DNA from: Candidatus Omnitrophota bacterium
Lineage (GTDB): Bacteria > Omnitrophota > Omnitrophia > Omnitrophales > Aquincolibacteriaceae
Assembly (NCBI GenBank): GCA_903856085.1
Contig: CAIOAT010000049.1
Location: forward strand, 1-57,893
Direction of reading: 5' to 3'
DNA: 57,893 bases
Position 1 is the stretch's first letter, and every line of letters starts with the position of its first letter. Shown here one piece after another: positions 2,451 to 42,594 of this stretch. The translations under genes and the position numbers were made by a program. The notes below the pieces were generated by a model, which searched no databases, was not told the DNA's origin, and saw only the letters and a program-made list of their open reading frames with translations.

Positions 2451-4238
2451 TTATCTGCGAGCCGATGTGCCGTAATTCTGTAGTTTCGCCTGCATTTCGG
2501 GGCTCAATTTCTTCACAAGCTCCGCATTGTAAGAACCTGTCGGCATGGGTTTGATGGTGGGATCTTGAGTCGGATTCAACTTAGTTACAGCATCCCAAGT
2601 CCCGATTATCTGCTCTGTCGCAATCGCATATTGACGCGATATCGCAGCAGGCGTCCCCTCTTTGACAGCCGGATCGACATCGGTCGTAACGATTGAAAGG
2701 GTCTTGTCGCTATTGAGGTAGATCTCAAATGTGCGAAATTGCTGAGGGAAATCCCTCAACGAGGAGGTCTGCACCTGCCAGAAGCCTTTTTCAGGAGCGT
2801 TGACCGGATCCGGCGATATAAACGCGTTAACGGTATTTACATGACGATGCCCTGTGATCCACATGATGAGATTCGGATGGCTTTGAAGTTCCGCGATCAG
2901 ATCCGGCAGGGTCACCGCATTTTGAGGGTCGGTCCACCAACCCATTTCGGAATTAGGCGCCGTCACTTCGACATTGATCGGTACGTGCGCAGCAACGATC
3001 ATAAGCTGACCGGCAGCATCCCCCGCCGCAAGTTCTTTTTTAAGCCAATTCCAACGTTCTGTGTCTAGAAAGCCGTGCCCGTGGACATCGGGAGAGCCAT
3101 CGTCTTCCCTTTGAGTATCGTCGAGCACGATCACTTTGAGCGGCAGAGTCGCTTTCGGCACAAAGCTATAGCATGCAAAACCCTTGCTAGCATCGGCCAA
3201 ATTAAACCCATGGCCGACAGGATTGGAAGAGGTTGTAAAAAATTCCTTTATCCACTCTGTTCTCAAAAGTGAACGGCGGCCCGGATCGGCGACAACCTTC
3301 GGAGGACTCTTGAAGTTTGCGACAGGTCCCGCATCGATAATGTTACCGTAAGGAGTCGAGCCATCGAGTACGCCCATATAGTAATCATGGTTGTTTATCA
3401 GGGCAGGGTTTTTGAGGATATCTCCCGTGGCGAAGACTTCATCGGTAATGTAGGACTGCCGGAGGTCCTTCCGAAGGCCATGGTCCACGGGAATCGAACC
3501 GATCCAGAAATGATCGTGGTTGCCGAGAGCCTGATACCAAGGGATTGTCTTATCAAGCCCTGCCGCCTTGTAAGGTTTCTGATAATCGATAGTGCCGGCT
3601 CCGAGATGAGCGCCGGAACTTGGGGTGATGACCTTGCCGTCGAGGACATCGATATACCACCGGAGTTCGTTCTGCTGAGTGTTGTTGCAGGTATCACCCA
3701 GAGAAATGCCGAAATCAAACGGCTTTTGTTTGTGAAGGGCATTGATCGTTTGGACGGCCGCGTCGAGAACATGAGTGGTATACAGCATGATCCCTGAATA
3801 GAGCGAAGCGCCAACGGGTAATGTTTCGTGCAGGCGTTGAAGATAGATCAACTGATTCGGGGATTCTTTGTCGGTGATATGAATATCGGATATGGTAAAG
3901 AAATTTAAAAGTTTAGATTTTTTTGTGACTGAGGCACCATCGTAAGCACCTCCCATAAGATCGATCCGTTTTTCGCAAAGGAGAGGTCCTCCCATCGTCC
4001 ATTGGCCATAGCCATATTGTTTATATTTTGAAACCTCATCAAGATGGATCTTCGCTGAAGGTATCGGGCCGGGCACGACCGTTTTCTGGAGCGTCGTAAA
4101 AACATTGGAAGCAATCGGGTATTCTTCGAGTTGATTTTGCTGCTTAACAGCGCTTCCTGAGCACCCCGCTGAGGAGAGGATCATAATACTCATTAAAAAA
4201 ACCAAACAGAAGCTCTTGAATTCACAAAATCGTTTCAT
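2451..4238 (-). CDS. Lipoprotein metallophosphoesterase (TIGR03768-like)
   Basis: The 595-residue product opens with a lipoprotein signal (lipobox Leu-Ser-Ser-Ala-Gly-Cys near residue 26), placing it on the periplasmic face of a membrane. Calcineurin-type metal-binding motifs occur in order: SDIHITD (about 117), GDTCNN (about 183), GNHDHFW (about 240), AAHVPIN (about 416) and GHRHVN (about 463). The spacing and length fit the large PPA1498/TIGR03768 metallophosphoesterase group, whose substrate is not established. The start at 4238 has AGAGGG upstream. Confidence 0.85.
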   Translation of the reverse strand: MKRFCEFKSFCLVFLMSIMILSSAGCSGSAVKQQNQLEEYPIASNVFTTLQKTVVPGPIPSAKIHLDEVSKYKQYGYGQWTMGGPLLCEKRIDLMGGAYDGASVTKKSKLLNFFTISDIHITDKESPNQLIYLQRLHETLPVGASLYSGIMLYTTHVLDAAVQTINALHKQKPFDFGISLGDTCNNTQQNELRWYIDVLDGKVITPSSGAHLGAGTIDYQKPYKAAGLDKTIPWYQALGNHDHFWIGSIPVDHGLRKDLRQSYITDEVFATGDILKNPALINNHDYYMGVLDGSTPYGNIIDAGPVANFKSPPKVVADPGRRSLLRTEWIKEFFTTSSNPVGHGFNLADASKGFACYSFVPKATLPLKVIVLDDTQREDDGSPDVHGHGFLDTERWNWLKKELAAGDAAGQLMIVAAHVPINVEVTAPNSEMGWWTDPQNAVTLPDLIAELQSHPNLIMWITGHRHVNTVNAFISPDPVNAPEKGFWQVQTSSLRDFPQQFRTFEIYLNSDKTLSIVTTDVDPAVKEGTPAAISRQYAIATEQIIGTWDAVTKLNPTQDPTIKPMPTGSYNAELVKKLSPEMQAKLQNYGTSARR

Positions 4239-4488
4239 AAAACCCTCTTCCCCTTAATCTTATCCGCCTCAGAAGTCGCACCCATTCCCACGAGAGCACA
4301 GCCGGATATCAAATCGATCTTTTGCATTATATCTTGTTCTATCCTTTCCACCATACCGAAAGGGCAAGAATTAATGATGAGATGTGGAAACTTCCCTAAA
4401 CGAGAGATAACCTCCTCCTGAAATGCCAAAAACACAAGAATTCCAGAGAAAATAATGCGAGGACTCAGTTCGTAGAGATAAGGATAAG

Positions 4489-4566
4489 TGGCGTCCCCAA
4501 GGGGATTTGAACCCCTGTTACCAGGATGAAAACCTGGTGTCCTAGGCCGACCTAGACGATGGGGAC
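4489..4566 (-). tRNA. tRNA-Glu (UUC), CCA encoded
   Basis: Folded by eye: a 7-bp acceptor stem GTCCCCA/TGGGGAC, an anticodon stem CCAGG/CCTGG around loop TTTTCAT (anticodon TTC), and a T-arm ACAGGGG-TTCAAAT-CCCCT. The mature 3' CCA is encoded at 4491-4489. A likely promoter lies at 4588-4615. Confidence 0.95.
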
Positions 4567-4629: not shown

Positions 4630-7600
4630 TCAAGCAGATTGTTTGACGGACTGAAAACCCTCGATCGCATTCATAAGAGCTGTCGTGAGTTCCTGGAAGT
4701 GTGTCGCAATATTCCTGGGCGAGCCTTTTGAGATCTTCGGGTCAAGAGCCGCATACAGCGCTTCCGAGATCTCCGCAGCAAGGATCTTCATATTCTCCTG
4801 AGCTTCCGGACTGTTATACCAAAGCGTTGCCCGATCCGTTCCGGGAAGATCCTTCTTCTCCCCTGCTAGCAAAACATCCTCCCGAACGCCGGGCTCTTTA
4901 AGAGATCTGAATAAACTCCCCTCAGATCCGGCGGCGCCAAAGATACGAAACTGCCCCTCAGCGATTGTGATCCCATTACGCGCGGCTCTGTCGAGGAACT
5001 TCTGCTCAAGCCCCTTGGGAGCTGCTCCCTGCACGTTCAAATAAAGCTTCGTATTAAGCGCCACCGCAAAAGCCAGAAGGATGGGCGCAAACTCTGCCAA
5101 GGCTTCAAGCTTTGCTTGCGTAAGCAGAGGAAGTGCCACATGGACCCCACGTTCCTCCAATGTGGAATCTTTCGCGCCCGTGACCTTGAAACGCTCCAAG
5201 GACGCGATCACCTTCTGCAACGCTTCATTATCGATCCGGCCTTCCGCGCTCTGTTGCGCTCTAAAAGCCTCAAGCAACTTCATCGCGATCCAAAGCCTGG
5301 CTTTTATCAGATTCTCTTCCGTCACACCCTCCTTAAGACCTGCCGCGATCCCTTCCGCCGAAAAAGCTCCCACGGCTTCGGCCGCTTCGACAACAGGAAT
5401 TTGAATAGCCTCGGACAAAAGACCCGCCACAGGCTTGAAATCAATTTTCCCAAGCACCGTTTGGATCGTCCGGGTAGCGCCCTGCCCAAGATCCAGCACA
5501 CGAATCTCCGCCCGGGGAAACGCACCGGATCCATCCTGCTTTGCAGGAGGATTGAAACGGAAGGATTTTGGGACCGCAACAAGAAGTACTTGACTACGGA
5601 ACTGCGTGTTGTATTCAGGATAATCCGTAGGTTTTTTCAAAGTCTGAACGTCAAATCCAGCTTCCCGGATCTCTCTGATAATCCTGGCGTCGATTCCTTC
5701 CGTCACATCCGTTTCTTCGATTGTCACCAAAAGGAGTCCGGAGGGCTTTAAAAGTTCCTTTGCACGGCGGGCGAGTTCCCCGGGAGCTGTTTCAATATGA
5801 TTAATGGTGACGATATCGAAAGTGTTTTCTCCTAAAGAACGGAATTCTTCAGGGAATTGAGCGTTCGCATGAACAATGCTGCCCCGAATACCTGCTGGCG
5901 CTTTATCGATAATGCTTTGTAACGGTTCTGTCCCGATCGCAGTATTGACCCGATAGCCCATGCGTTCTAAAAACGTTTTGAACTCCGGAATAAAATTCCC
6001 CATACCTGTATCAAGATCAGCAGAGGCTAAAACTGAGCCCACCGAAAATTTTTCCTTCAAAATATCCGCCAAGGATCCCCTCATCTCGGGGCGTCCCCCA
6101 ATTCCACTCGGGGTAACCTTTGCGATCCGTTCAACCTCGCGTTGAACACTTTCTTGTGAAAGAATCCGCTCCACACCAATTCCAGGTTTGAAACCTCGTC
6201 TTTTTGCAAACGCTTGAGAACCTGGAGTCATCGCATTAAAACGAATACCGCCCGTCACCCTCAGGTCAGGATTATTGGCCATGGAAATGAGCGTATCCAT
6301 CAGAAGATCCGCAACTCCCTTGATCCGGCCATCACTTCCGATATTTTTGTAATAGATCTCGATCTGCGGGACCGCGAGATGAAAGGTGTATTTCAGCCTC
6401 TTAACGTCAAAACTCTCCGGATCGCCGTCAAACCCGACAAAACCTTCCAGTCTTTCCTGCTTCCCAACCCGGGAAACCACGCCAATGGCAACATCGGAAA
6501 TGTAACCGAAATATGGAAACTGTTGTTTGGTAATCTCCCGGCTGTCGCCCTTCGCTTCGCGGGCCCGGAGCCACATTTCATCCGACTGAAGCTCCGCCTT
6601 CCATTCACCGAGAAAATGGATATCTTCCTTGGGGTCCAGTTTCTGGATAAAAAATGCGCGGCCCTCCCGCTGACTGTCCCTCAAAACTTTCTCGCCGAAA
6701 TACGCCTTCACCTCACCGTCCGTTAACCGGACGGGTGTTCCGAATTTGTCCGCAACATAATTTTTGATGGTATCCAGTCCCAAAGTCTCCACGGCGGAAG
6801 TCCCCACGGGCAAGCGCGCCTCGGAACGAGTTTCCAGAGGGATCGCGGATAAAAGCTTCTTTCCGCCAAGAAGATCATTATCGAATTGGACGAGATCCAA
6901 CGAGTCGACCTGATATTCAAAAAATGTCACGTTTTTATAAGCGTCGAATATCTCCTGCAACTCCTGAGCCTCCGCCGAACTGAGATCATCCTTCAACTGA
7001 AGAAGCGGTACCGCAAAAACCTTCCCGTCGAAAGTATTTAAAAGGTTCCGCATGTCTGAAAATTTGTTCTGGGAAACTACGGAGTTGAGCTCAGGATAGA
7101 TCCTCAAAAAAAGCCTGGCGCCAATTTTATCCAGAGTCCAAAGTCCTTTAGCGCGGATCATGACGGGCGACTGGTCCTTCAGCTGGCTCTGGACCCAAGG
7201 AACAAGCCCGGGAGACCCGGCTGGACGCTTCTCGAGCGCCCCGGCTACCGTCAAATGAATCGCGTCCTCATCTTGCAAAACGATCTTTCCATTGAGAAAT
7301 CCCTTTGAACTCTTGATTTGGCCAAGCAACCGTCGATACTCGGTGCTTTGAGATAGCATCTGCTTTGGAATTTCGTGGATGAGAGAAATCCTCGTACCCT
7401 TGGCAATATCAGCTGCAGCATCAGTCACGTAAGGTTCCTGCCGAAGTAACGGATGCGAAGGATTCACAAGCCTTAAAAAACGGGCCGCATAGGCCGGTAA
7501 CTTGACCGTAAACTTATCCGAGGTGATCGGGATCTGCTGCTCATCATATTTTAATTCCCGGTCATCCGAAAACCTTCGCACTTCGAAGCGCGCTGAAGAA

Positions 7601-10600
7601 GGTGCCGGTGGCAGCTGCAGGAATTCTCTTACATCTGCCCGGGAAAGGAGCGGAACATCGCGACCGTCCAGCAAGAGATTAAGACCCGCCCCAGAAGACC
7701 GGAGGTAGATCCTTATGAAAGGAAATTCCATCGATATGGGAGCCTCGATATTACTCTTTACGGAGAAACGGACTCCGTAAGCCCCCGATTTCGAAGCGGG
7801 AATAAGCGATGGCGGAAATATCAGCGTTCCATTTCCGGAAGCCTTGTCATCCATCACCAGCAGGACCTTTTGCGCCCGATCCGTCATGAGACGGCGAAGG
7901 ATCTGAAAAACCTCCGACTTTTTTGCCAGGGCTTCGACACGAGCCGGAGCTGCCGTTTCGCCCACAATGCCCATATTGCCGTTCTGCATGAGCCACAGCG
8001 TCCGTGGAGCTCCCTGCTCACGCGACCTTCTCAACTCGACGTACAGAACCCTCGCTTCAACGAGATGGTCCAGGATCTCAGGGAGAGAAACCGCAAGGGA
8101 CGGTTGCTCACTGGCTTGTTTCCAGAACGCAAGCGCACCTGCTGTGGACTCTTTACGAATGGCCTCGGGACTTTTGCCAATGTTGTCCGCCAAGAAGACG
8201 TAGCCATCTTTCGCACGAGGTCTTATCTCACGCAGGGAGACTTTGATCTTCTTGTTACGGTTTGCAAGGAAAAAAGCTGTGGCAGTCTTCGGATCACGCA
8301 GCCGGAGAAGTCCCTTAAGCTGGAGCCCTTCATGCTCGAAAACAACCGTGATTGCATTCTCGGTCTCCATCATAACGAGCCCACGAACCGTAACCTCGGT
8401 CCCCTCCAGCACATTCACAAGTTTTTCCAGAGTTTTAAATGCCTTGGAATCCGGTCCCGTTCGCGCCTCGGAACGGCGGGTGTAGACATGAATGCGTTTA
8501 AAAACAGTAGCGGCCGCTGGATTAAAATCAATCACGCGGTCATCAAAAATCCCTCCGCTTTGTCTCAGAGGTTCCAACAACTGCTCCGGACCGTACTCCA
8601 CCACCTTGCCGCCTGACTTCAGATGAGCCACAATCGTTTGCGCCAGGATTTCAACATTACTTGTGCCGGATGAATAGTAGTAGATCACGTCCGCATCCTT
8701 AAAATGCCCGACAGATTCCTCCGAGCGGAAATTACCCGGGTAAAGCTGAATTTGACCTTTTCCGACATACCCTTGGCTTTCGGCGACGGCGAGAAGCTTT
8801 TGACTGGCCTCAAATAATTCCGGATCCATCTCAATGCCCGTAAATTTTGACTGCGGGTAGGCGTGAGCAAGCATGATCAGAAAAACACCGTCCCCGTGTC
8901 CCGCATCAAGCACCGTTTGGGTTTTGTCTTGAGCGATCGGGAAGGCCTTAATGATCTCGACCATATCTTTAAGCGCGGTCCTTACAAAAAATCCCTCTCC
9001 CTTTCCGGTTTCCTTCATCGGGAAAGGACGGAATTCGAGACCTGCATCACGGTAAAGTTTTCTCACCACATCTTCGATCGGAGAAGACCTCACCTCAGAA
9101 CGGAGCGGCGCTTCACGGGCGGCCTGCTGCACCGCCTCTGAAAATTCAATGGCTTTTTTGACAGGTTCCTCCGCCTGAGTGATGGCCGCATTCACCAGCA
9201 CCGCATTAAACCCCATCTGCATGGCCACCCGGGCATCTTCCGGTGATCCAATGCCGCACTCCGCGATCAACTGGATGCCTGGCCGCATTTCCCTTGCCCA
9301 TGCCATCACCTGCAGGATCTGTGCTTTTTCCTCAGGCGTCCCGAGGCCTTTGCCCGAACCCGGTTTCGTCCCTTCGATCCGGAGAGCCAGGACCTGATCG
9401 TATTGGAGCAATTCCTGAAGCATCTCACGCGTGATGCCCTTTCCAATGAGAGGAAGCAATTTAAGATTCTTGTTCATCTCAACAAAGCGCTTGATAACGT
9501 TTAAGATCTCGTCATTTCGGGTCATCAACCCTTTATCCCGAACCTCGATCTTCAGAAAGGGCGTCTTGAACCAACGGATCCCGAAGGCCGCCAGTTGGAT
9601 CGCTTCGTCTGCGGTCTGAGCCTTGCTTGTATTGATGATGGTAAGAAAATTTCGCGTCTCACCGAGAGCCGCCAGCTTTTCTTGAGTTCCCTGAATGTAA
9701 GGAAGCCGCAGGAATTCAGGAAGCGTACGGATGTCCCCGTCCTTGCCCAGTTTCGAACGGCCTGCGTCTTTCTCGAAAGTCGCGCTTCTCAGTATTTGTT
9801 CGGCCTTTTCAACGGGCATTACTCTTCGAACCTGATCGATCTCTCCGGGAAGAAAGATAAAAACCTGCGTCCCCGATCGCACGGCAAGATCACTGGAAGC
9901 CTCTGCCGAAAGTATCCTGTAGCACAATTCACCGGACTCCCCATCAATGTGCGTCACGGCCGTTGGAGCGAGCAGGGGAAATAGATCGAGCCCATCGAGG
10001 ACAAATCGTCCCTGATGCTGATCCATAACTGCAGCTCTCATCACATCAAGTGCCCTTGTCTCCGCACGAACGAGATCACCAGAAAGGGTTGTCTGGCCCC
10101 CCTTCGGTTCTTGAAGATATTTAATGAAGCCTTCTAACTGAGGCAGGGACTCTATATACGGCTTGCGAGAAAGCGCAACCAAGCGATCTTTCGCCGAGGC
10201 CGGCGCATGATCGCCGAGCATTTGCAGAATCACAATAAGTTCTTCACCCAACCGCCTAAGCCCCTCATTCGAAGGGAACTCCAGATCATAAGTCCCCATT
10301 AGCCTTTGAATGTCTGCGCCGGCACTAGCGACGTTCTTGGCACCCCCTAAAGAAAGTTTGTCATAGATCGCCTTGAGCTCATTGCCGATATCTGCCTCCG
10401 AAAAACCGGGTCTTCCCTTGTCCAAGGCCCGGTCTTGAAGGAGCTGCCGGGACTCGGCGCGAATATCGGGATTATGAGCGTCCTTGGCTCCACCGGGCCG
10501 AACCAAGGAAACCCCAAACGGCATCGGAACGAATTGATCCGTTTTTCCATTCGCGATTTCATAAGAAGCAGCCAGCGTAGCCTGCATATATTGATAAAAA

Positions 10601-13600
10601 AACTTTTTATCCTCTTCATTTTCAAAGAAGAGAAGCACCTTTGTATTCGCTCGATCTTTCCGCATCCAAACCACGGGGTGTTCCAAAACCGCGGGCTTAA
10701 AATCATAATCCCGTGCCAGAATCTCCGAAACAGCAGGGTTTATCATAAGCTCATGCGTGGATCGGACTTCCGGAAAACGATCAAAAAATAATTTAAGCAG
10801 AGGCGCTAAAAACCCCTTTCCGGTGATATCCCGATTTGAAGGATTGATATAAACCCCACGGAATTTCCCCTGAATGCTGTAAGCCATAAGATCCGGCGCG
10901 AAGGGTATCCCTTGGGCCGGAGGATTAGTCTGTCTTAAAATGATCCGCTTTAAATCGTCATCCTTATTAACAACAGAAGTAACATTAAACGTAATTTGAC
11001 GCCCTTCATTCGTTTGCCAAGTAACTTCGCCTAGGGCTTCTTCCCGCGCCGGGATGTGGAAGGAAACAGGTGCTGGGGGTATTCCAACGTTCCCTGACCT
11101 ACCTGTTTTTACCATAGGCCAAGAAGAGACCTGCGCTGAACCTTCTGAAGTATGCGCTCGAACAAATGCCTGAAACACTTCCTCGTTCGCAACCACCGGA
11201 TCGATCTGCACAAAATCCCCGCTCGGAGTCCGTATGACATCCGTGGTTAGGGTAAGTCCCACGCTCATAAGTTTCTTGAATAACTCCTGGATTCCTGGAA
11301 ACCCAAAAAGCTTGATGATGTCAGGTATCGATTCTCCCACCACATATTGCATGGCGTATCCCATAATAAGACCGTCCTGATCCCTGAGCACCCCGTAAAG
11401 TTTCGGCCCGACACCCAGAATCGAAAGGACCTGAACAGCGGACAACTCCTCCTTGTAACGAAGGTCCAAAACAGACTTGGTCTCTTTGGAAGAATCACGT
11501 GTTATCCCAAGCGCACGTGTCCCGGGCATTCGGAACAATTTGATAACGGCGGGAATGTTCTTCCCATCTTTTCCGACAGGAAGCGGTCCCAAAAGAACCA
11601 TGACCGATCCATAATTGCCTTCTCCTAAAACAGGGAAAGACTCTAAGGGATGGGCAGGCGTCAGAACCGGCAGTGCCGTCAGATTCGTCACAACAAGGCC
11701 GTTCTTATCCTCGGGGCGGACGCTTTTCATGAACCATCCTTCCTCCTCCCTCGCAATACGATTAAATGAAAGCACGCCATCGCGGCCACTTCCGATCCCG
11801 AAAGAATCGAGGAAAGCCATCACCTCTTTTTTCGAATCGCTAGCGCGCACTTCGAAGCGTGGAATCATCTCAAAGAGAGCATCCGCTTGATCAGCAAGTT
11901 CCGGATCGCTTTTGACACGCCTGTTGAGCTCCCGGAAAATGAGCCAATCCTTCGCGCTTCTTTCCAAAAGCGTAAAATCCTCTCCTGCTAATTTAGCCTT
12001 CATTTCGGTATCATCGATCAACTGCATATAGGTATTCAGCTGCACAAAAAGATTCCGGTCCACATCGCCCTCATAAGATTCAGGGTCACTGAAAAAAGAG
12101 GATGGCATTTTATTCAGGTATTCGCCATCCCTGAGACCTTTGAGAGCCCGGAAATATTCCTTGATAAGAGCCTCGATTTCCCAGCCTTTCACTTCGGAAG
12201 CAAACCGGCTTATTCCCGCGATAACCGATGCCCCCGGATTATCCGTTTGCTGGGCCAATTCATGGACCTTTTCGAAAAGAACCGTATAACGGTCAAAACC
12301 CGCCCTTTGGCGCGCCTCCCTCTCTAATTGATCCTGTCCCCGCAAAGCCTCCTCTTCCACATTTAAAGGCGTCGTGACCCCGATTTTTTTCTCGGAACGG
12401 CCGGACGCACGGTCCAGCGCGCTTCGATAAGCTACTTTCAATTGCTCTTCTGCCTCTTGAAGACGCGCGAGCACCAGTTCGCTATAAACATCTTCCTCGG
12501 GCACACTCTTTCGTATTTCATTCAAAGTCGCAAGCGGCGTCTTCATACTCTCCCGCAATTCATTGAAACCCAAGGTCGCTGCCATCGCCTTGAAGGCCTC
12601 TCCCTCGTATTTCACAACTTCTGGTTTGTGGCGTTCAGACCCGTAAGCAGGCGTCGATGCGGTAAAGAACATCCTAGGAGATCTTGGAGAAAAGAATAAA
12701 CTGCCCTTGGGATTTTCAGGATTGAGTTCATCATAAAGAGCCTGCAACATGTCCGTAGCTTCCCCTAGATACAGAAAAACTTCATCTCCAGGCACAGCTT
12801 TTCCCTTTTCCTCTATTCTGTAAAAATTAAACACAATTAACGCATTTAAAAAAATATGCCCTAGAAGCTCTGCGAACTTCATCGAATCGGCGGGAGTAAT
12901 CTCCGGCTTTGTGGAAATGATTGTCCCCACAAACTCTTCTGGAACTTCACCTGTTTCAGAAACAACACCCTGCGCCGGGATCCTCAGTTCGGAGCGGGGT
13001 TTTGATGTTACAACGGGAACGACCGCCGGCAACCGCTTGCGGGCGATCAGAACATACGGCGGCGATTTCCGATCATACCTGGAAATTCCCGCAGTTCCGC
13101 TGTCAACGAACGTCGCCTCAGTGATACCGTTTGTCTTTTTCCAGGCAGCCAGTTCCTCCATCATTGCTTTCGCCCGCAACCTTCCCGTAATGCCAAAAGG
13201 TTCCTGGCCCACAAAAAGCTTGGTGTAAACATTGCCTTTGGCGTCCACCCCGATCACACTCGCCTTGCCATGGAAAAGCGCCCGGTACCATTCCCTTACG
13301 TTTTCATTAATCTGACCGCCAGGTTTCACCGCGAAAGGGCCGGCCTGAAACGCGAATATTTCCTGGCCGGTGGTGCGATAGGTTTGATTGTCGTAGAACC
13401 GCAGCCTCCCGGAGCGATCGACGACTCCGATCACCTTAGCCATGGCACTGCCGAAATTATTGGGATTGCGGGAACTGACCTCTACGCGCTTCCCATTCAC
13501 ATTGGCGATCACCCATCCTGACGGGATCTTCTGATCCTTATCATTCACACGGTAAGGATTGATCGTCGAAGCAAAAATGAGCCCGCTCTTGGGATTGCGA

Positions 13601-16600
13601 ATGGCGTTGATGAGACTATCGCTGACCGGCACTACTTCAAGCTGATAGTCCGCCGGTGCGAATTTCTTTTCGCCTGCCTTCTCTCTCTGCTCCGCAAGGA
13701 TTTCACTAATCCCTCCCAACAACGCAATCCCCGCAAAAGCTAAAAGTCCCCTTTGAATGGCCACACGACGACTGATGCCTTCTTTCGTCCTCACTTCGGA
13801 ACGGCGCGAGCTCAAAATCCCTGAGGCGAGTTCCATGACCCCCGATTTTAAAATCGGCACCAGTGGTCTCGATTCCGCACGCGGAGGTATTTTAAAAACT
13901 TTTTCACCGTTATCCTCAATCATCGCGAGCTCTTGAAAGTACCGGCGAATCAAAACCTCGGGACCCTTCACGACGAATTTCAAAACAGAACCCGGGCCTG
14001 CGGCGAGCGCCAAAAGTCCCATGATCTTTTTTCCATTGACCCGCTCACCATCTTTCTCGACCTCGATTTCAAGTTCCGGGAACCGATCTCCAACCTTTTT
14101 GATCAAAGTCGAAGGTTGCGCATGAATCCCGAGTTTATTGAGGACCGTACTTTCACGCTCTTCCTGCACACGCGTTTCGGAACGTTCAGCTATTTTTATC
14201 ACCACGGCAGCTTCCATAACACCGGCGGTAAAACCTGGCGGTAAAACCTTCGACTCTGATTGAACCTGACGAAAAATGTCTTCATTCCCATCCTTCGCCG
14301 TAGCAAGCAACTCAGTGAAAAAATTCTGAATAGATCGTTGATCCGGCCCCTCAACCACGAACTTCATTGTGGAACCCGGAGCTGCCGCTAACCGCATGAT
14401 CGACATGAAGAGTGTTTGGTTGTTGGGGAATGTGGCTCGAACTTCGCCGTTCTCATTCTCAACTCGGATCATGAGATTTTGGTGGTTCTTGATGGTTTTC
14501 ACAATCAGCTCCGTGGGAACCGCGTGAATCCCGCGTTTACTCACGATTAAGAATTCCCGCCATTCATGCGCACGCATTTCAGATCGCTGAGACGGCATAA
14601 AAAGCTTGATGGGGCCTTCGCTATCCCCTTGCTCTCCGACAACCTCGGCCTGAATCCTGTACATTAATTCTTTTAGTTTCGCGTTCTTTTTTCCTTCCAG
14701 AATGATCGTCACATCAGTCCCGCCCACAATTCCGGACGCCAGAACAGCACCGATGCTTTTCAGATTGATATCGCGGTCTGCGACACGCAAAACGGCATTC
14801 TCAACGTTATATTGCGCGATCAGTTTTACAAGCTGAGATGCCGGCCGGTTATGAAGTTTCGTTAGCGGATTGATCCTGAGGTTTTTGACGATTTTTTCTG
14901 ATTTCGGGGTCGGTTGTTCGACCACGGCCTCTTTTCCCAGGATGGTAATGGGTTTCATATCCAGAATGCGGGCAACGTTTTTTGCGATAAGATCCTTTTG
15001 AGCCCGGCTTAAAATCTTCCCTTTTCGCGTCAAAAAGATCTGCGTTTCAGGCGGAAAACCTTTAATATGCTCGAATTTCAGATTCTCAATATCGCAGCCA
15101 TGGATCAGTGAAAGCACCGTCGAAAGAATCAGCAGCTGCCCACGCCAATTCGATGACGCGATATGGACCGTCAGAACGCTTACGGTTTTACCTTGATGAG
15201 AAACGTCGTCCAAAAACTTGGCTTTTGTTTCCGGGCCGATCCACGCATCCCTCTTATCCACGATGATAGACCTGCCATACACTTCATCCGCTCGCTTAAA
15301 ACGGATCTCCATATCGGTCTTCAGAATACGGAAGACCTTATCCCCTATGTTGATCGGTGCAAAAATGGCCCCCAGTTCCGACGTTATTTTTTTCTGGACC
15401 ATGGGCATCTCTTCGCCGTGGGGAAAGAAACCCAGATACCGGATGAACGCCGGTTGGCCGGGCGGATTGCGGATCGCTGCATTCTCCACCGAAAAACCGT
15501 TTTCAAACAGAGTTCTTGTGTAGAGAGCCACATCCCCAGACTCCTCAAAGGCACTCCCGAAGATCACTTCATAAGCCTGGTTATACTGGTGCGGCAACGG
15601 GGAAAATATCGTAGCCCGGGTGGATCTGTCCCCTTTTTCCTTGAGGTACAAAAGATGCCGGAAGAAAAAAAGTTGCTTCAGCAAAGAACCAAGATCCATG
15701 GTCCTCATGTAGTATGTGGACGTCCGACCGCTGAATTGCCTGAACAATGGATCGAAAAGGGCAGGCGTCTCCACGGTCTTCACTAAAAGTTCACGCAATG
15801 ACACATCGTCGCCTCCCTGGGTATTGGCCAGGTAATCGTCCAAAATACTTCCCCATTTCTGTGCTCTGATAAACTCTCCCAGCTGCGCCGCAAGCTCCTC
15901 TTTTCCTCCCCAAATGACCGTCTGCTTCGCTTCCTTCATCGCCGTTTGCGCAGAAAGCTGCTTGTCGCCCAACATCTTCATACCGGCAAAAAAGAGCATG
16001 TCCAGATCCGCCAACGGTGAATCCGCACCTTGACGCGGGAGCATGATCCTGCTTTCCGGATTAGCCTCCGCCGCCTGTTTTGAAAAAGTCACGGCATACA
16101 GCACCCGGAAAAGATCGAGGGTGACGCCTTTGCTATGAACTACTTCGGACATTGTTTTTACAATATCATCTTCCGATAGAAAACCATGTCTGGCAAAACG
16201 GTGCTGATTTAGCATAAGCCAGACCAGCTTGTCCCTGAGAGGGTTCGGTTGATCCAGAGAACCCTGGTCCATGTTCGATTTTTGTAAAAATTCGTGAGTG
16301 ATGCGCTTGACATCCTCCACCGAAAAACGATCGCCCGCTTCCACTTCCACGATCGGGTGCAACATTACGGCCAATCTCGCGAGCTGCACGGCTTCAGGAT
16401 CAGACCGTAATTCCCGGTAAACTCCGGCGGCCCGTTGATACACGAAACCTTTTTCTTTAGTGTCAAGACGCTCTAAAGTCTCCAGGGTTTGCAAAGCCTG
16501 CATCTTCAAGGGAAAGAGAGTGCCGTCTTTGAGGGAATACATGTTCAGTTCGCTGAGATGGTGCAGAGATTTGTCCAAAAATCCGAATTCTTCCATTCTC

Positions 16601-19600
16601 CACATCACATAGGAGATATCCTTTTTTGATCTCAGAAGTTCTCCAAAAAAATCGTTAAAAGCATCCTGATAATCGAGAGAGCCTTCGAGCATCAAGGCTT
16701 CCATGGCCCATTGGGTCCGGTGGCTGATAAAAGCACCCTTTTCAGCCGCCAGCATAAAAACTCTGAACATCAACGCCGGATTTGCACGGAAATTCTCCAG
16801 CGCGTGATCGACATGGATATAATATCCGGCCTCCCCTTTGCGCCCTCTCTCACGGCTCATGGTCAAACCATAGCGAGTCTGACCTAGGATCCAAGAAGGT
16901 TGGCCGTCCCAGCCTGCAAACGCCTCTAGCTTGCCCTCATTCTCTCCATACGTATAGACAGGGCGAATGAGAACGCCATCAATTTCATGCAGTGTCCGTC
17001 GAACGGTGTAAAAGATGCTGGCTGCGGAATTATGAAAGTACCGGTAAAAATCGTTGATCCGTTGTTCTTCTTTTCGATCCCCTGCCGACGTTTCATCCCG
17101 GTCGGTCCGGCCTTCGGCGAGCCAATCCGGACGGCCATATTTTTTCTCCCAAGCGTTAATAAATTCGCCCATAATGGCCGGATAGAGGTTCCCGCTAAAT
17201 TTATCAGGATCTTTCCCCTGAAGTTCCCGGTAGGTCTCCTGGACGGATTGGATAAAATCAAAGGACTGCAACACCTTTTCGATATTGGCGGGGATCAGCA
17301 TTCCCCTGTTTGCCAAATACTGCAGGATCCTCTGGATCTCACTGCGATCGACCGAATTTTCTGTTGATGAAAGCCGGAGGGAAGCCAGGGCTTCGGGATC
17401 ATTGGCCAACCAGACCTGCATAAGATTTTTCAGAAAAATGAATTCCGAGCTTCCGCCGATCCCTTTCTCTGGATCAATGTTCAAGCGGTAAAGGGCGTGA
17501 TGAAAACCTGCGCTTTCATACCGTTCTTGCCATTCTTCGACAAGGATCGAAACCTTCTCTGACACTGAAAGATAACGATTCGAAAGCTCCTGGGCCCTAC
17601 CGTCCAAAATATCCGACCCCTCGGCGGCACCAAAAACAGCGCTGAGTTCCTCGTCAGGGATCGCACGAAAAACCTGCAGGGCATGATTCACACGGGCAAC
17701 GACATCGCCCGTGACGCTTACGGAAAACGGAGAATCCTTGGCTGAAAGATCTTTGACGCCAAATTTACGTCTCCACCATTCGGCGGCAAGAAGAAATTTA
17801 TCCGTTTCCGCGATACCACCGCAAAAACAGACCTTTTTTCCACTCTGCTGAGCTCGCGAGATAAGTGCCTCGAGAGTCACCGTCAGATGGCCGTCAAGAT
17901 CATCCATGAGAAAAGCCGCTGCGGAATTCTCTCGGTCCACCTCCACATTTTTCGTCTGCCAATAATCTTTCCAGAGATCATTGTTCCCGACATTCAGACG
18001 CACGATAAACGGATCCTCCCAAAATTTCACCATTTCCGGGCTAAAGGTCTTCTTTCTCTTGCTCGGATCCGGCGTCTGATCCTCTGGATCCGTCACTTCT
18101 AGCAGAGACATATATTCGACCATGATCCCGAATCGTGTTTCTTCGCCGATTTTGCGAATGTCTCCCTCTGCGCGCTCGATTTCTTCCGGATTAGCTCCCG
18201 ATCCCGTCGCGATCTCCCAAAGCGCGATCTGCTGCGCTAACGGCCACAGTTTCTTTCTGATCCATTCGAATTGGGCGTGAGTTTTTATAAGAGGAAAAAG
18301 CGGCACAAGCCGGCCACGCTCCGTTTCCGAAAGCGTTCTTCCCGCTTTCTGAGCCGCAACGATCATGGCTGCCAACTCAAGCACAAGGACCAATTCACCC
18401 AGGGAACTGTTTTCATACAAATCAAACCCGCTGATGGGTTGGGACGGATCTTTGCGCAGCGTCGAAGCGGGATGCTCGGCAGCGATCGCTTCCAGCATTT
18501 GAAGGATCGCGCGGTTCTTGCTATCCCGTTGAAGATCTATGGTCCGAATAGGAACATCACCCCCGGAAAACGCTTTCTGTGTCAAGATCTGCTCAAATGG
18601 AACGGCCCAGAATTTCAAAAGGCCATGAATGGCTTCGGCATTTCCAACGCCCTCGGGATCCAACCGGGAGAAACGAGCCATGAGGTCTTCAGACCCCGCC
18701 GTCCTTATCTCCGACCTTGTTTGGAAACTTTGCAGCCATTTGAGCGGGTCCACTTTAGTTTCAACCACGCCTGTAGCCAAGGTCTTCAAGTATTGAAACA
18801 ATACTCCTGAAGAATCATCCTCGTTTTTCGGAACGATATCCACATCGGTCCGAATGAGACCCGGCAGAGTGCCTCCTTCAATAGCCGCCACAGTACTCTG
18901 GGCTTCAAAATTTCCTGCGATGGGAATGGAGGATGGGATGTTCCGCATGAGCCCCTGGAACCGCCTTAACCTCCGATAGTCTTCTGCTTTCTTTTTTTCT
19001 GCCGCAAGATCCTCAAGACTTGGATTCAGGATAAGAAGACCCTGGCGTCCCTGCTGGGGCATGAGAATGGCCTTGGTCCCTTCAAGCTTGGTCAGTTTTC
19101 CCTCTTGGGAGGCAGGCACCAGCAGGATTTGCGGAACATAAGCCCGCCCCCGGATCAGCACAACCCAATGGGTCTGACGATTTGCCCCGACGCCGATGAT
19201 CCCTTTGATCTGGTGTTTGTAACGTTCCATCATGCGCGAAATATCTAAATTCGAAGTCTCCAGCGGCACCACCAGGATATAGGATGCTCCCGCGTCCGGC
19301 ACACCCTTTCCTTGGTTTCCCTCCTCCTTGGCTTCAAGATCATCCATCACTTCCCGAAAAAAATCCTGCCCCGTTTTCCCGGAATCCGAGAAGCTGGTGA
19401 AGTTTTGCGTCCCCCGATGCACTCCCATGCGCAAACGGCTTTGAAACACCCGTAAAAAGAAATCATCATAAAGTAGCCTTAGCATGGATGCGCCCGACTT
19501 TTGTTGGGTTTCTTTTTCCACACGCTCATTCAGCGTGAATGGAAACCCCTCGTAGATTTGCTGCTTGCCTGATGCCGCATTGCTCCTCGTCGGAGCATCT

Positions 19601-22600
19601 TCGTGCTCATCAATATATTTTTTATCAATCTCCATAGTCGTTGCTAGAATTTTCAGATCTTTCCTGACTGCCCCAAGAAATTTTGAAATGTCCGCGGCTT
19701 GCGAAAGTTGGGCCGTCAATTCCCGAAGCCTTACGTCAATAGCTTTTCTCCTTTTTTCAAGCGCCTGCTGCTTATACAGAAGATCCCTCTTGGGGAATGA
19801 ATCGGGCTTTTCATCAGCTACTTTTTCCAATTCAGCGTGGGTCACCTCCAATTGCCGTCCCAGTTCCCCATCCAGGCTTTGAAATCTTCCTTGAATGATC
19901 GCCGCAATCTCCTGTTTCCAGCCCCCGGCTGAAAACCTTTTAGGCAAAGGGCTCTGACTCAATACATCCCGGATATGCTCAAGCTCCTTTTTTTCGAGAT
20001 CGTGGGTCGCTTGCGCCTCTTTTTTCATGGCAACGTACAAAGCGGTCGTCGTAAGCATTTTGGTCTGACTTTCAAAAACAGCTGCGTACAGCGCGGCCTT
20101 TTCATTCACTAATCTTTGGATGAATCCAAGATCGTCCTTTCCGTTTTGGGTGAGGTAAAACATTTGAACAAAATCCGCCACAAGCCGGATAAGTTCTTTG
20201 ACCGCGAGATTTGCCCTATCATGGGTTGTACTTCCGTCTTCAGGGACAGGGATCGTGGCATCGTGTTCATAGGCCGTTTGGAGATGTCGAACAAGCACCT
20301 CTTTACTTGCCTCAAGCAATGACAAAATCCGGCTGACGGGATGTTCCACGGGACCTGTGCCCCCTGGAACCGCCAAGCTACTTTCCATTTTTGATATCTC
20401 TGAGAGGGCATCACGGAAAATCCCAGCCTCCACTGCGGGGAAGATCCAATGTAAAAGCCCACGTTCCGAGGGAGGGATCGCAACCCATTTTCCGGCCCCG
20501 TCTTTTCTTCTCCCCACGGAGATATCGCCCTGATAACTCGTAGTGAGTTCCTTCGCAAATGCAGCAGCCATTTCCTGGGCATTGGAAAAACGTTCCGCAA
20601 AAGAATCACTCCTGGGCATATCCCAGTGAAAGGTCGCATGGTCCGTTTCATCCCCGGGTTTGGATTTTTGTTTAAACTGCATCTGCAAAATCTGTCCGAC
20701 CGCAGGCCTAGAAGTAAAGATGGTTCCATCCTCAATCACTTCACGGACGCGCACTTCGGAACGCGGAGAAGGACTGCCAGGACCGGGAGCTTCCGGAGGT
20801 TTCGGAACGGTCCGGAGAATCTGTGTTTGGCTGAATTGTTTTTTTCGCGCTCGAACAAGAAAAGCTTCTTTCTCACTCTCTTTTAAAAAACCGCTCGCGA
20901 TCATCGCGTCGAATAATTTTTCGAGACCTGTGACGGACAAACGATCCTGTCGAACGAATGCCTCCATAAGAGAAAAAATGGCGTCGTGCTCGAGGAGCCC
21001 GATCTCGCCCAACTCTCTGATGAATATTCCAAAATTTTCAAAACCTCCCGGAACGACCCTAATGACTTCATGCGCGTGACCTTCATCAACTTCACGAACC
21101 ACGGGACGCTCGATCCACTCCTTTAGCTTCCCAGCCGTCACCGCCCGGGCTCCTTTCTTTCCGCTAAGCTCGCCTTTTGTCAGTAAAGCCTTGATATCCC
21201 CGAGATCCATCAAAGCGGTTTCTCCCGCAAAATCAAGCAGCTGACCCGTCCCGGAACGCTGAAAATCTGTAAGTCCATTCAGTGCTTCTAGCACAGCCGC
21301 TGCTTTTTCTGATTCGGAGCTTCCAGCACCGGGTTGGACCAAGACGGTCTCGGGAGCTAAACGCTCCCCGACAGGCTCGTAACGCAACGAGGAAAAAGTG
21401 CCGAGAAATCCTTCGAAAGCATGGGCGGCCGTCTGGAGATCTTCCGGAACATTTGCGGGGATTTCACTTTCCTGGGGAAGAACACTGGGGTTATTTGCCG
21501 GGAAAAGGCCGCGGTATTCCGAGAAGAGATTCAGTTTCTGGCCTTTTGCTTTAAAGCTATCGACCACGGCCTGAGGATATCCGATCACGTAGCCCATCAT
21601 TTCGATCAACTCTTCATCCGTCATGCCTTCGAGCTGCACGGGATAAGTCCCGTACTTCTTGGGCGTCCACGTCTTTCCGTCCCAGGCTTTCCTGGCCGTC
21701 GCCTGGGCCCGTCTCAAAAGCTGAGGCGCCGTGACGATCGCGATCACCGGATGTTCCACACCCGCCGTTGCCGTTTCGATCACCGGAGCACTGAATGTAA
21801 AATTTTCAACGGTGACTGTGGAATGTTGAATCTCGTCCCGCACCAACGTGCGATCCCCTTTCACGGCCACACCTTCCCGCTCTAAAACGAATCTCATAAG
21901 ATCACTTTCATAAACTCCGCCCTCCCGGGTCATCGCCCTCTGGATCCAGGCTTCTTCGGCCGGATCAAGCCGGCCCAAGGATTTGTAATGATCGATGATC
22001 CGACGCGCTAAGGGTGGAGTTCCGCGACCGTAGCCTCCGGCCAACACAATGGGAACACTCCGTCCCGTTTCCTGCTTGATCGCTTTCCATTTTTTTGAAA
22101 ATTCAAGGAAGGACCGGAGAGAAGGGTTTCCCAAGAGAAGGAAAGCATCCGGCGAACTCGCGAATTCATCGGGCGCTGAAATATAATTCACATAACGCTG
22201 CCCGGGCGGGATGAGTTCATTGCGGAACTTTTCCCGCATCTCGGAACGAGTTTTAAGTGGCTCACGAACCTCCGACCGCGAGGAGATCGAGCTCCAAATG
22301 AACGGCACTTGTTTGGCCAGCGAAAGCACGGCCTCGATCTTGCTTTCGGTGCTGAGCGTACTCTCCTCGGGCGAACCGATCCAGACAACTGGCACTTCCA
22401 GAATCTTCTTTTTCGCGTTCCGGATCCGGAGAAGCAGATGCGTATCAAAAGCAAAGTTGTAAGTGAAATCAGGGTCCAGACGCCACTGGCTATCAACCGG
22501 CAGGATCTCCTCGAGCAGTTCACGGGTGAAACCTTTGAACCCGCACTGCGTGTCACGAATCCCCCAGAATCCCAAAAAGAGTTTGGTTGTCATGTTGTAG

Positions 22601-25600
22601 ATGAAACTGCCACGTTTTTCATCGCCCGATCGCCCCTTGACCACGGCGCCGCTTTGCCACCGCGAACCGATTGCCGCATCCGCTTTGCCATTGGCGAGCT
22701 GTTCCAATAAAAGACCGCTCTGGCCCATGTGCGTGGCCCGGTCCGCGTCCGTAAAGATCACATAATCGCAACCGTCTTCGAGCAATTTCCTCATCCCGAG
22801 AATGATCCCGCTCCCCTTTTTGCCGCCAATCTGCAGTTTCTGTTGGCGATTGATGAACCGCACCTGAACTTGACCCGAAGCAAGCCTATCGGGAAATCGC
22901 TCACGCAGGATATCCAAGGCGACTTCGCCAGAACTTTTCTGCGTTTTGATGACCGGGGCCGGAACGTTCCCTTCCAGTTTGCTTTTTTGCATCATCCGGA
23001 GCCCAAAAAACAGGCCGGACCGAACATGCTGGGAAAGAAATTTGATATACCATTGCCAGAACGGCGACTGCATAAGCGTCCCTTCAAGAAAACTCACACG
23101 AAGTTCATCATCGCGCAATGCTCCGTCGGGCACTTTCCGTTCACCGTCATCCATGATCAATAATTCATAAGACAATTTCGGATTCACGGAAAAGAGTTCA
23201 TCGAGCTCCTCCAACTTCGCCGCGATCGCGTCTTCCCCATGGGGATTATCCGCGGACTTCTTCATCAAACGGTTCTGCTCTCCGTACATCGAGAATTCGA
23301 CCCCGACCTTCACAGGCTTTCCGTCCTTGATCGGGAAACGGTAAATCCCCAGGAAGGACCGGATCAGCTTTTCGGCTTCCGGCAAGACATGATGGAATTC
23401 CTTGTCCCGTAAAAGCAATTGGTCAAGATATGTCGCGTGTTCCGCAGCATCCGGGCCCTTGAGGGCCTTGGAAAGGTTTTTCGACAAAAATGCCATACGC
23501 GAACGGTCATCCATCGCAGCCAACGTCCCATCTTCCCACGAGGAGCGCATCAGCACCGTCGACCAGCCATCCCGCACGTTATCAAAACGCGTTTCAGAAC
23601 GTTGCTTACCATCTTTTAACTTGAAGCTGGGGAGCATCTCTTGGGAAGGTTTTATTGAATAGACCATTTCGCCAGATCTTTCACCCGACTGAAAACCCAA
23701 AGCGCTCAGCGCGGGCTGTAAAGAAGCTTGTTCGGCTCCGATAAACTGAAAGATCATAGTGTCAGCTTTATAGAACTGCCCAAGAACATCGCGAAAAAAA
23801 TCGAAGAACCTGCGTCCCTGCCCTTGCGAACGAAACTCTTCAAAAACCTGGAACCTTACGTTGTAAGTTGCTTTCCCCCGGAAATTGAAAAGGGCATATC
23901 CCCGCCAGGACCCGTCTTCACCCTTGTAGCCCAACAAAGCGCCTTGGTTCCGGTCAAAGGTCCACACATACGCCGTTTCTGCCCTTCCGGCTTCCGCTGA
24001 TTTTCTCGAATAAACAACGGGCTGCTTTTTATTATCGATTTTAATCTCATCACCCGAAAAGCTCTCGCCGTCAGGAGCATATCGCTTGAGTGTGATCCCC
24101 CGGTTCCATAAATTATTAAGAAGATCATCTGCTAACGGCGCAATCGTTTGGGCCGACAATTCAATTTTCTCAACCCGCGCCTCTGCGCGCGCGTTGGCGA
24201 CTTGTTCCTTCCCGCGCCGGGTCAGGCGCGCCATCGCGGCCAGAGAAAGCGGGATCCCAGGAAATAACGGCGAAGCGCCAGCCCGGGGTTTAGTTCCCTT
24301 GGGAGTAATGATTTTCAGATCCCGCAAAGAATTCAGAACCGCATCCACATGCTCAGCATGGATCATTCCTTCCTGGCTGTGCATTAAGTTGGGGAGTCCG
24401 TAGAAATCTTTGGCATATTCTCCCCCAGTCAAGCTGAGGATCTTGTGCCGGTCAGGATATGCTTTGAGTTTGGTTCTCAGCTGTTCCGCGCCCAGCACAC
24501 CTCGTGCAGCGCCCGTCTGCTGGCTTAAGCCGGACATCAGTGCCGCAAACGCGTTCTTTTTCTTGTCACTGCCCAAACCCTGAGCCGTCTTGACTAGGAC
24601 CCGTTGGATCTCCGAAGGTTGATATCCGCCCCGGAGTTTCAAGTCCTCGAGATACGATTGGTACAGCTTCTCTAAATCCATATTTTGGCCGCCGGCTTGG
24701 GCAAGACTTAAAGTCTCAAGCCACGCCATATAAAAGGCCGCGCCTTTCACTTCATCCAGATCACGATGCAAATTCTTGCTGACCCGTTCCAGCACCGGCG
24801 AACTGATGTGATCAAGACCTTCCAGAGGATCGATCACAGGAAGATGCCCCATTTCCGCGAGCGCGATCAAAACCTGACTGTCCGAAAGACCCGGAAGCGA
24901 CATCGCCTTGAGCAGGGCTGCATCTTCAAGCACGGCCACCCATTGATTGGTTTCTTTTAAAATTTCCGGCGCCAACTGCAAGATCCTTTGGCCATGGTCC
25001 GGATGTCCGTGACCACCGTAGAGTGCCTCCAAGTGTCTCCCCTCCCACTCCAAAGATTCATGCCGCGCCCCAACTCTTTGGGCTTCTTCTGTTACAACCG
25101 AGGGTTGATCTTCCAATGCCGCAGGATAAAGCCCTTGAAGTATTGAGATCGGGCTCGTAGGAAATACCATTTCGGAGGTCGGCTGCTGAAGATTGTCGCC
25201 CGGCACCAGAACAGGCAGTGGAAGTTGTCCTTGTTCCGCATTTCGCTCCCGGTCCGCGTTCCGCTGGCTTTGCAAGTACACAAGTGTGCCTGAAAAAACA
25301 AGAAACGCCGCGGGAATCGCCCATATCCATTTAGGAATAGCCCCCTGGGTTTTCGGACGCAATCCCTGATCCCGGCCCTTCTTCTCCGACCCCCTCGGCT
25401 TATCTTGCCGCAACTCGGAGCGATTGGCGTCACCGGCCACACGGCCCCCCGCCATCCGCGCAAATTCATCAAAATAATGCTTCAAATCTATAATTGTTTT
25501 AGCCGTTATAGGCGGCTCTCCTGTGCCTTTATTGAACATTTCAACTAATTGTTGATTAACCGCTAATGTTTCCTGGAAGTTTATAAACGATGGATCAAGC

Positions 25601-38651: not shown

Positions 38652-39338
38652 TCAAACGAGACAAAATCGGTAACCGACGCCGGATTCGGTTTTGATGTGC
38701 GATGGTTTGTTTGGATCAGGCTCGATCTTTTGCCGGAGGTGAGTGATATAAACGCGTAAATAGTGGGTTCGCTCTTCCGAATTGGGGCCCCAAATTTCCC
38801 TAAGGAGCTGGCGGTGAGTCAGAACTTTCCCCGCGTGCTGAACGAATAATTTTAAAAGACCATATTCGATCCCGGTCAATTTGATTTCTTTCCCGCCAAC
38901 CAGAACGCGCCTATCGGCAAAATCAACGGTCAATTTGCCGTTCTGAAAAACCGGAAGATCAGCCTTTTCGGGAGAATGTCGCAAGATTACACGTAACCGG
39001 GCTAGCAATTCCTCCTGGCCGAATGGTTTGGTAACATAGTCATCCGCTCCGCCGTCAAGGGCTCGCACCTTCTGTTTTTCGTCGTCTCGAACGGACAGGA
39101 TCAGGACCGGGGCCTTACTCCATTCCCGAAGTCGCTTGAGCACTTCGACACCATCGATGTCGGGCAAACCGAGATCGAGAATAACCGCATCTGGTTTTTT
39201 TTGAGTGGCCTCAAGAAGCCCGGAGTCCCCGTTTTCAGCTTCGCAATATCGGTATCCCCCGTTTTCAAGTGTTCGTCGCAAAAGTCGACGCATTTGGACC
39301 TCATCATCGATCACAAGAACAAGCGGTGGCTGGCTCAT
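38652..39338 (-). CDS. kdpE: Response regulator KdpE
   Basis: The receiver domain (residues 1-120) has the acid pair in VIDDE, phospho-Asp in AVILDLGLPDIDG, and Lys in VTKPF. An OmpR-type winged helix (about 130-225) follows, with LTGIEYGLLKLFVQHAGKVLTHRQLL and RVYITHLRQKIEPDP. It activates kdp transcription when phosphorylated by KdpD. It overlaps kdpD by 4 nt, indicating translational coupling, and is the last gene of the operon. Confidence 0.95.
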   Translation of the reverse strand: MSQPPLVLVIDDEVQMRRLLRRTLENGGYRYCEAENGDSGLLEATQKKPDAVILDLGLPDIDGVEVLKRLREWSKAPVLILSVRDDEKQKVRALDGGADDYVTKPFGQEELLARLRVILRHSPEKADLPVFQNGKLTVDFADRRVLVGGKEIKLTGIEYGLLKLFVQHAGKVLTHRQLLREIWGPNSEERTHYLRVYITHLRQKIEPDPNKPSHIKTESGVGYRFCLV

Positions 39339-42007: not shown

Positions 42008-42014
42008 AGGATTA

Positions 42015-42584
42015 TTATAGCGAATCTACCGCTAAGTTCAGTCGGAAAACATTCACCCGAGGATCGCCCAACACACCGAACTGAGGCGCCTCCGTATACT
42101 GATCAATCAGCTTATAGAGCATCTGGCGTTTTCCTTCACTCAATTTTCTTGCTTTAGCAACACGGTCCGCTTGGAGTCGAGCGGCCTCGGGACTGATGTG
42201 TGGGTCCAGTCCGCTTCCGGATGCAAAAACTATGTCAGACGGAAGCGCTACTCCTTGGGAAAGATGGTTGGCTTTTCTGAATGCCTCCGCCCGTTTCAGT
42301 ACAGCTTCCTTCAGGGCTGCACTGGTCGGTCCCAAGTTGCTGGCGCCGGAAGGCACCGTGGCAAAATCTGCCGCAGAAGACCGTGACCAGAAATATCCCT
42401 CTCCTTGGAATTTCTGGGCGAGCAATTCCGAACCAACCAGCTTCCCATTCTTCATTACCAAACTTCCATTCGCCTGGTAACTAAAAAATAACTGGGCTGC
42501 CATCGTAACAACCGCTGGATAAACGACGCCGGTGAGCAAGGTTAGAATAAGAAAGAGTCTCAATGCCTGAATAAGCAATTTCAT
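42015..42584 (-). CDS. kdpC: K+-transporting ATPase subunit KdpC
   Basis: The start is set at ATG 42584 because GAGGAGG lies 6 nt upstream and the frame then opens directly into the single transmembrane helix (residues 8-30). Family signatures include GSELLAQKFQGEGYFWSRSSA, an 'ASNLGPTSAAL' segment, ASGSGLDPHISPEAA and LGDPRVNVFRLN. KdpC stabilises the KdpA-KdpB complex and raises ATP affinity. Its ribosome site lies inside the end of kdpB. Confidence 0.95.
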   Translation of the reverse strand: MKLLIQALRLFLILTLLTGVVYPAVVTMAAQLFFSYQANGSLVMKNGKLVGSELLAQKFQGEGYFWSRSSAADFATVPSGASNLGPTSAALKEAVLKRAEAFRKANHLSQGVALPSDIVFASGSGLDPHISPEAARLQADRVAKARKLSEGKRQMLYKLIDQYTEAPQFGVLGDPRVNVFRLNLAVDSL

Positions 42585-42594
42585 CGTTGCCTCC

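Follow-up and report, generated by a model that had tools for sequence, protein, structure and literature searches.

Giant open reading frames (ORFs) are common in the phylum Omnitrophota. Published examples are longer than 20 kb, poorly annotated, and described as having transmembrane and adhesion domains (PMC10066038). Here we analyse a giant ORF of the same phylum, 7882 aa long in a single reading frame, which shares this size and poor annotation but is segmented by a short motif, RSExR, into a string of cytoplasmic-type enzymes, as are other giants of its genome. It lies on contig CAIOAT010000049.1 (C49) of the Candidatus Omnitrophota bacterium assembly GCA_903856085.1 (2.36 Mb, 50 contigs, 95% complete), of which positions 1-57,893, a stretch of 57,893 nt, were analysed and are called the window. 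The part under study is window 13882-20763, corresponding to residues 2506-4799, where the chain resembles enzyme I of the phosphotransferase system (PTS), GlnD and HPr.

The closest described counterparts of this part are PtsI or PtsP (EI-Ntr) with HPr/NPr, and GlnD, the PII uridylyltransferase. As in the former, the phosphohistidine and the phosphoenolpyruvate (PEP)-binding residues stand in order and the HPr domains carry a histidine, but the giant's enzyme I is extremely divergent, no GAF domain was found in it, and it is fused to a GlnD derivative and joined by three HPr copies within one giant chain. As in GlnD, a UTase helical region, an HD region and two ACT-like regions, all detected through relatives, stand in GlnD order, but no Pfam match to the nucleotidyltransferase domain was found in the chain, and the HD residues are lost in all six enzyme I-linked copies. 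For the chain as a whole, the nearest parallel is the RBCS polyprotein of Euglena, in which an N-terminal targeting signal precedes units connected by a short, conserved linker whose cleavage sets them free (PMC4938576). Euglena repeats one protein, whereas the modules of the giant are unrelated to one another and their cleavage is a proposal of the present analysis.

Enzyme I, the GlnD-derived block and the HPr domains

An earlier note, made from the sequence letters, had placed enzyme I, a degenerate GlnD-like HD/ACT region and three HPr domains in this order in one chain, and profiles and relatives bear this out, including the landmarks H3037, IRTD (R3143), IRTID (R3245), GNNDL (N3433/D3434), C3484/C3486, H4476, H4585 and H4719. 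As a single sequence, the enzyme I region is matched weakly (Pfam PEP-utilizers_C, E 0.0037, below the curated cut-off). A profile of six giants matches solved PtsI chains in the PDB (best E 1.8e-13), and hhalign pairs it with the PtsI of this genome at a probability of 98 (E 1.2e-13). In both relatives that were scanned, PEP-utilizers_C exceeds the cut-off (E 6.5e-9 and 3.2e-12). Moreover, eight residues (H3037, R3143, R3245, E3388, N3433, D3434, R3449 and C3486) are invariant in all six aligned giants, at 22-58% identity, and correspond to TSH, GLxRT, IRT, GxMxE, GTND, DR and CG in the ordinary PtsI, motifs that contain its catalytic residues. For the HPr-binding helical domain there is no Pfam match within residues 2506-2930, and the structure model is poor. 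The region is a divergent PTS enzyme I, probably an active one; because its active site is conserved and not decayed, a structural relic, which the earlier note had offered beside a built-in phosphorelay, is unlikely for this part.

GlnD is almost undetectable in this giant's own sequence (UTase_glnD, E 0.0078). The homologous block of one related giant matches UTase_glnD at E 8.4e-51 and that of another at 2e-37, both aligning along its full length at 23% identity. GlnD, HD and ACT profiles are recognisable where the block occurs in two giants that lack enzyme I, and it is colinear there with residues 3575-4445 here. "Degenerate" was an apt word for this region: the HD motif reads HP at residues 3974-3975 (LHPIVEVE, versus LFHDIGKG in one giant without enzyme I), and its residues, gone from every enzyme I-linked copy (6/6), are retained in the two giants without enzyme I. 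Because no nucleotidyltransferase profile is matched and the HD motif is lost, the block cannot be classified as GlnD; it is a GlnD derivative, probably without GlnD's catalytic functions and most likely a sensor or scaffold. Elsewhere, PF08335 is matched in 12 of 39 genomes (own and relatives), in some cases within other giants, and GlnD helical-domain matches lie in further giants at G003:C43 48382-48780 (7845-aa ORF) and G011:C205 20335-20715 (5870-aa ORF). PII proteins gave four matches in the source genome.

At E 1e-20 the combined enzyme I-GlnD profile has matches in 9 of 49 genomes from the class, and in seven of the nine the match includes enzyme I, namely in the own genus (4/6 genomes) and three other genera. 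Compared with the homologous giant of the relative RA.bin19, nonsynonymous (dN) and synonymous (dS) divergence is dN 0.34 / dS 1.87 for the enzyme I block and dN 0.32 / dS 2.93 for the GlnD block, so the two blocks are not chance resemblances. Conservation is lower in the HPr block (dN 0.63) and the C-terminal module (dN 0.68).

Three stretches match Pfam PTS-HPr, each above the curated cut-off (E 2.8e-33 together). An RSExR motif stands 4 residues ahead of HPr2 and another 3 residues ahead of HPr3, HPr1 has none ahead of it, and HPr copy number differs among related giants. On contig C13 an ordinary ptsH (98 aa) lies next to ptsI (582 aa), and an ORF close by was recognised by eye as ptsN-like. 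The earlier note's expectation that separate ptsI, ptsH and glnD genes would be absent thus fails for the first two and holds for GlnD, since PF08335 has no match in the 95%-complete source genome; its premise that EI-Ntr activity is tied to the GlnD ACT domain in α-proteobacteria was not confirmed by a literature search.

Enzyme I and GlnD blocks are joined in all six aligned giants, and both the active site and the HPr histidines are conserved, as would suit a chain that stays intact in the cytoplasm or membrane as a built-in relay, with enzyme I phosphorylating HPr in cis and pseudo-GlnD gating it. We consider this improbable: a signal-like segment opens the chain, further signals lie within it, and junction motifs stand between its HPr copies. 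The earlier note was right about the domains, down to single residues, but had seen neither the segmentation by RSExR nor the signal-like segment, and because of these two features one chain may not be the working form.

The RSExR motif at module junctions

RSExR occurs 14 times in this chain versus 0.17 expected, at 2506, 3188, 4565 and 4699 within the part under study, with RAESR at 4800. Motif DNA patterns led to at least eight giants in the genome, of 7882, 6234, 3915, 6649, 8244, 5108, 2770 and at least 7304 aa (the last extends nearly to where the fetched stretch stops), which make up 48,108 aa or ~6% of the genome and nearly all open with a hydrophobic signal-like segment. Counted as R[SA]ExR against expectation from composition, the motif occurs 91 times in these eight giants (2.26 expected), 3 times in the 89 remaining ORFs that reach 200 aa or more on the same stretches (1.35 expected), and 173 times in 80 ORFs from relatives (8.2 expected), of which 39, counted by eye, have at least one. 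Of these 80 relative loci, 78 are titled Omnitrophota, Omnitrophica or Omnitrophus, the others being "Bacterium isolate R3-B46" and Candidatus Auribacter (sorted by eye). In an unbiased word count, RSE.R ranks first for many motif-bearing giants; other recurrent words are LSDSR in L110 and AxSLG in L073, L135 and G035. A literature search on Omnitrophota giant genes, polyproteins and the motif, with preprint collections outside its reach, found no description of the motif.

In L110 (RIFCSPLOWO2_01_FULL_50_24), the ORF at 9839-21523 has LSDSR ~10 times at linker-like places, and the DNA of this word has YTCCGA and the final CG in common with that of RSExR. AxSLG lies in linkers of the G035 giants (L048, L049), L073 and L135, sometimes within a longer repeat of ~25 residues, and in G035 the GlnD block begins right behind it. 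The C-termini of seven own-genome giants read to the end are -SA in five and -AA in two.

The motif marks module junctions. With the motif masked, 42 of 238 homology edges lie within 15 aa of one (permutation mean 15.8, maximum 29; 1000 permutations); the edge and signal tests used the relaxed form R[SAFP]E[AVLIMTSKGN]R, and L059 was left out of the codon, conservation, edge and signal counts as a duplicate of G021. Nine of 16 Pfam domain starts fall within 30 aa behind a motif, here the relaxed form with K also allowed in place of the last R (permutation mean 1.3, maximum 6; 20,000 permutations), the HPr copies among them not being independent. These starts were compiled by hand from matches beginning at profile position 5 or earlier, with overlapping families dropped; later-starting matches left out include APH, ThiG, this chain's GT2 and DUF218, Nudix, GNAT, GT1, B12-binding and RNA polymerase alpha CTD (C-terminal domain). 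In addition, 15 of 78 internal hydrophobic segments start 3-30 aa behind a motif (mean 4.1, maximum 11; 5000 permutations), and 2 of 78 end ahead of one (mean 4.1).

Individual modules show the same arrangement. Complete enzymes fit between motifs: in the 6234-aa giant, motifs at 2298 and 2830 enclose a glycogen synthase, and a UDP-glucose dehydrogenase and an ITPase start 19 and 12 residues, respectively, behind a motif. A twin-arginine-like signal stands behind junction 5478 of the 8244-aa giant, and the 3915-aa giant has a lipobox signal behind junction 687 and a Sec-like signal behind junction 1802 (all types assigned by eye). In the present chain, motifs separate the HPr copies. Blocks near motifs recur in re-ordered form in RA.bin19, where residues 1-792, 2501-2912, 1054-1298 and 7589-7882 of this chain correspond to 28-807, 781-1172, 3906-4151 and 6742-7042.

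Such shuffling could mean that RSExR is a junction scar, left where gene fusion and shuffling joined modules over a short stretch of DNA or a linker that had been copied, in which case the chain would be uncut and its internal signals remnants. The scar would account for a sharp 15-bp unit to which conservation is limited, with no conservation of the flank, for a different module order in relatives, for other words in other lineages (LSDSR in L110; AxSLG in L073, L135 and G035), and for biased codons of the first two motif residues (CGY and TCC, with AGY/AGR depleted), a bias that a pure peptide site leaves unexplained. Set against this is the retention of the motif between orthologues. In the enzyme I-to-HPr block, each of the four motifs that fit R[SA]E[AVLIMT]R has a motif partner in RA.bin19 at a flank identity of 0.1-0.4, 13 of the 16 R/S/E/R codons being synonymously changed between them (counted by eye), and the last arginine follows background codon use; the motif itself may have served as the anchor of these orthologue alignments, and over all pairs 52 of 66 aligned motif instances have the motif on one side only. 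A peptide function is favoured because the peptide is kept while 13 of 16 codons change, and a DNA role or common descent may still contribute because the first two codons are biased. The directionality of the internal signals fits fusion equally well and does not discriminate cutting from a scar. On balance we regard a scar as unlikely, if still a serious contender. Shine-Dalgarno-like internal starts, which GAG-GTG in some motifs might suggest, were rejected: neither the glutamate codon nor the fourth residue is constant, and most internal signals, inspected by eye, have no methionine ahead.

A segmented chain and its possible products

Cutting at RSExR would best fit the internal signals and junctions of this segmented enzyme string. 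We give an even chance to the giant being a precursor of ~20 motif-bounded segments, a polyprotein that would be cut at RSExR and so release PEP-driven enzyme I, pseudo-GlnD and HPr proteins. The N-terminal domain would then depart by means of its own signal. Any module that has an internal Sec, Tat (twin-arginine) or lipoprotein-like signal behind a junction would be exported separately, and modules without a signal, such as enzyme I/pseudo-GlnD/HPr1, HPr2 and HPr3, would remain in the cytoplasm with its supply of PEP. Enzyme I would there autophosphorylate at H3037 and hand the phosphate to the HPr histidines, and the ACT-like regions of pseudo-GlnD may gate enzyme I by an amino acid, perhaps glutamine. 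Somewhat below an even chance, in our estimate, is the wider proposal that the lineage makes heterogeneous cellular polyproteins: at least eight giants of ~5-20 unrelated proteins each, with RSExR cutting sites and with Sec, Tat or lipoprotein signals on some units, of which a PEP-driven, amino-acid-gated phosphorelay would be one product set, sister lineages using LSDSR and AxSLG instead.

Several observations weigh against cutting, or against the relay as its product. An export-like signal opens the chain, and enzyme I would find no PEP outside the cytoplasm. The model predicted for the enzyme I region is poor (mean pLDDT, the predicted local distance difference test score, of 39 from three sequences) and was not used. 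RSEIR 3188 lies inside the enzyme I barrel, being present in RA.bin19 and absent from G016, and one relative's motif falls inside its GlnD block, so motifs do not always mark domain boundaries. Conversely, 196 of 238 homology edges are farther than 15 aa from a motif and 7 of 16 domain starts have none nearby. In G002, enzyme I, the GlnD block and HPr stand between two motifs with none inside, so they may form a joined unit. Metacaspase (C14) is absent from the eight other genomes with motif-bearing giants that were read, no processing protease was identified, and no cutting was observed.

Signal-like segments would also be in keeping with export of the whole chain or its modules to act on a partner, host or prey, the PTS modules working in the recipient or as a scaffold, as proposed for other giant ORFs of the phylum, which have been linked to attachment and predation (PMC10066038). 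Since many modules are cytoplasmic enzymes needing cytoplasmic substrates and Pfam finds no adhesion domain in the chain, export appears highly improbable. An artefact of assembly or gene calling, in favour of which nothing was found, is scarcely credible given ORFs of 6,000-8,200 aa in several assemblies, eight motif-bearing giants here, and purifying selection.

The junction motif makes each giant a readable module list, predicts protein ends, and makes the question of one versus many proteins testable by proteomics. If the giants are cut, they would represent a polyprotein strategy for unrelated enzymes; to our knowledge, polyproteins of unrelated enzymes are known only from viruses. The enzyme I/pseudo-GlnD pair, in turn, would show a PTS starter fused in nature to the relic of a nitrogen sensor.

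Terminal modules, protease candidates and neighbouring genes

The N-terminal domain is found free-standing in other Omnitrophota as ORFs of 532-569 aa. Its structure model is good (pLDDT 87) and has no Foldseek match at E 0.001; the top three chains by VIA-align are the EreC group (Z 7.2-6.7, root-mean-square deviation 4.4-5.2, 167-189 aligned), with Z within the chance range, and a ChaN/Tiki profile weakly matches 3 of 38 members of the domain (best E 0.0019). Because members of the Tiki superfamily include proteases, one may guess that the domain processes its own chain. A C-terminal domain common to all giants was considered and rejected, as the module here is present in three relatives and the others have small groups or none. 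Metacaspase was likewise rejected as a general processing protease, being found in only 3 of 39 genomes searched; a metacaspase-like gene of the source genome lies at L148 1501-2448, and peptidase C11 is absent from that genome.

Table 1. Features of the giant ORF, by position in the window
Feature	Residues	Window position	Strand	Basis or remark
Giant ORF, 7882 aa, single reading frame		4630..28278	-	ORF call; homologous giant of 7042 aa in RA.bin19
Signal-peptide-like N-terminal segment	1-36	28171..28278	-	By eye; equivalent segments in relatives
N-terminal domain, EreC/ChaN/Tiki-like candidate	37-655	26314..28170	-	Common to giants; free-standing in other Omnitrophota
RSEVR junction, opens enzyme I block	2506	20749..20763	-	
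Enzyme I-like region (H3037, R3143, R3245, E3388, N3433, D3434, R3449, C3486)	2914-3545	17644..19539	-	
RSEIR motif, between R3143 and R3245 in the PEP-binding domain of enzyme I	3188	18703..18717	-	
GlnD-derived block: UTase helical region, dead HD, two ACT-like regions	3575-4445	14944..17556	-	
HPr domain 1	H4476	14677..14886	-	
RSEMR junction	4565	14572..14586	-	
HPr domain 2	H4585	14308..14559	-	Begins 4 residues behind motif
RSETR junction	4699	14170..14184	-	
HPr domain 3	H4719	13957..14160	-	Begins 3 residues behind motif
RAESR, variant junction	4800	13867..13881	-	
RSEVR junction	4826	13789..13803	-	
Internal twin-arginine-like signal segment, directly behind 4826 junction		13693..13788	-	Hydrophobic segment computed; twin-arginine reading by eye
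ThiG-like module, ending just ahead of RSEVR 6393	6198-6390	9109..9687	-	Pfam
SAM (S-adenosylmethionine)-methyltransferase core	~6456-6517	8728..8913	-	Pfam
C-terminal module behind RAEIR 7589		4633..5514	-	Common to three related giants

A tRNA-Glu at 4489-4566 (-) comes immediately after the giant gene, 63 bp beyond the stop codon. Window 38652-46340 (-) holds ORFs that by eye resemble KdpA, KdpB, KdpC, KdpD and KdpE, a potassium uptake operon whose link to the giant is not shown; in E. coli, EIIA-Ntr acts on KdpD. At the contig end, window 57005-57892 (-), stands a transposase-like ORF of the integrase-core type, also recognised by eye.

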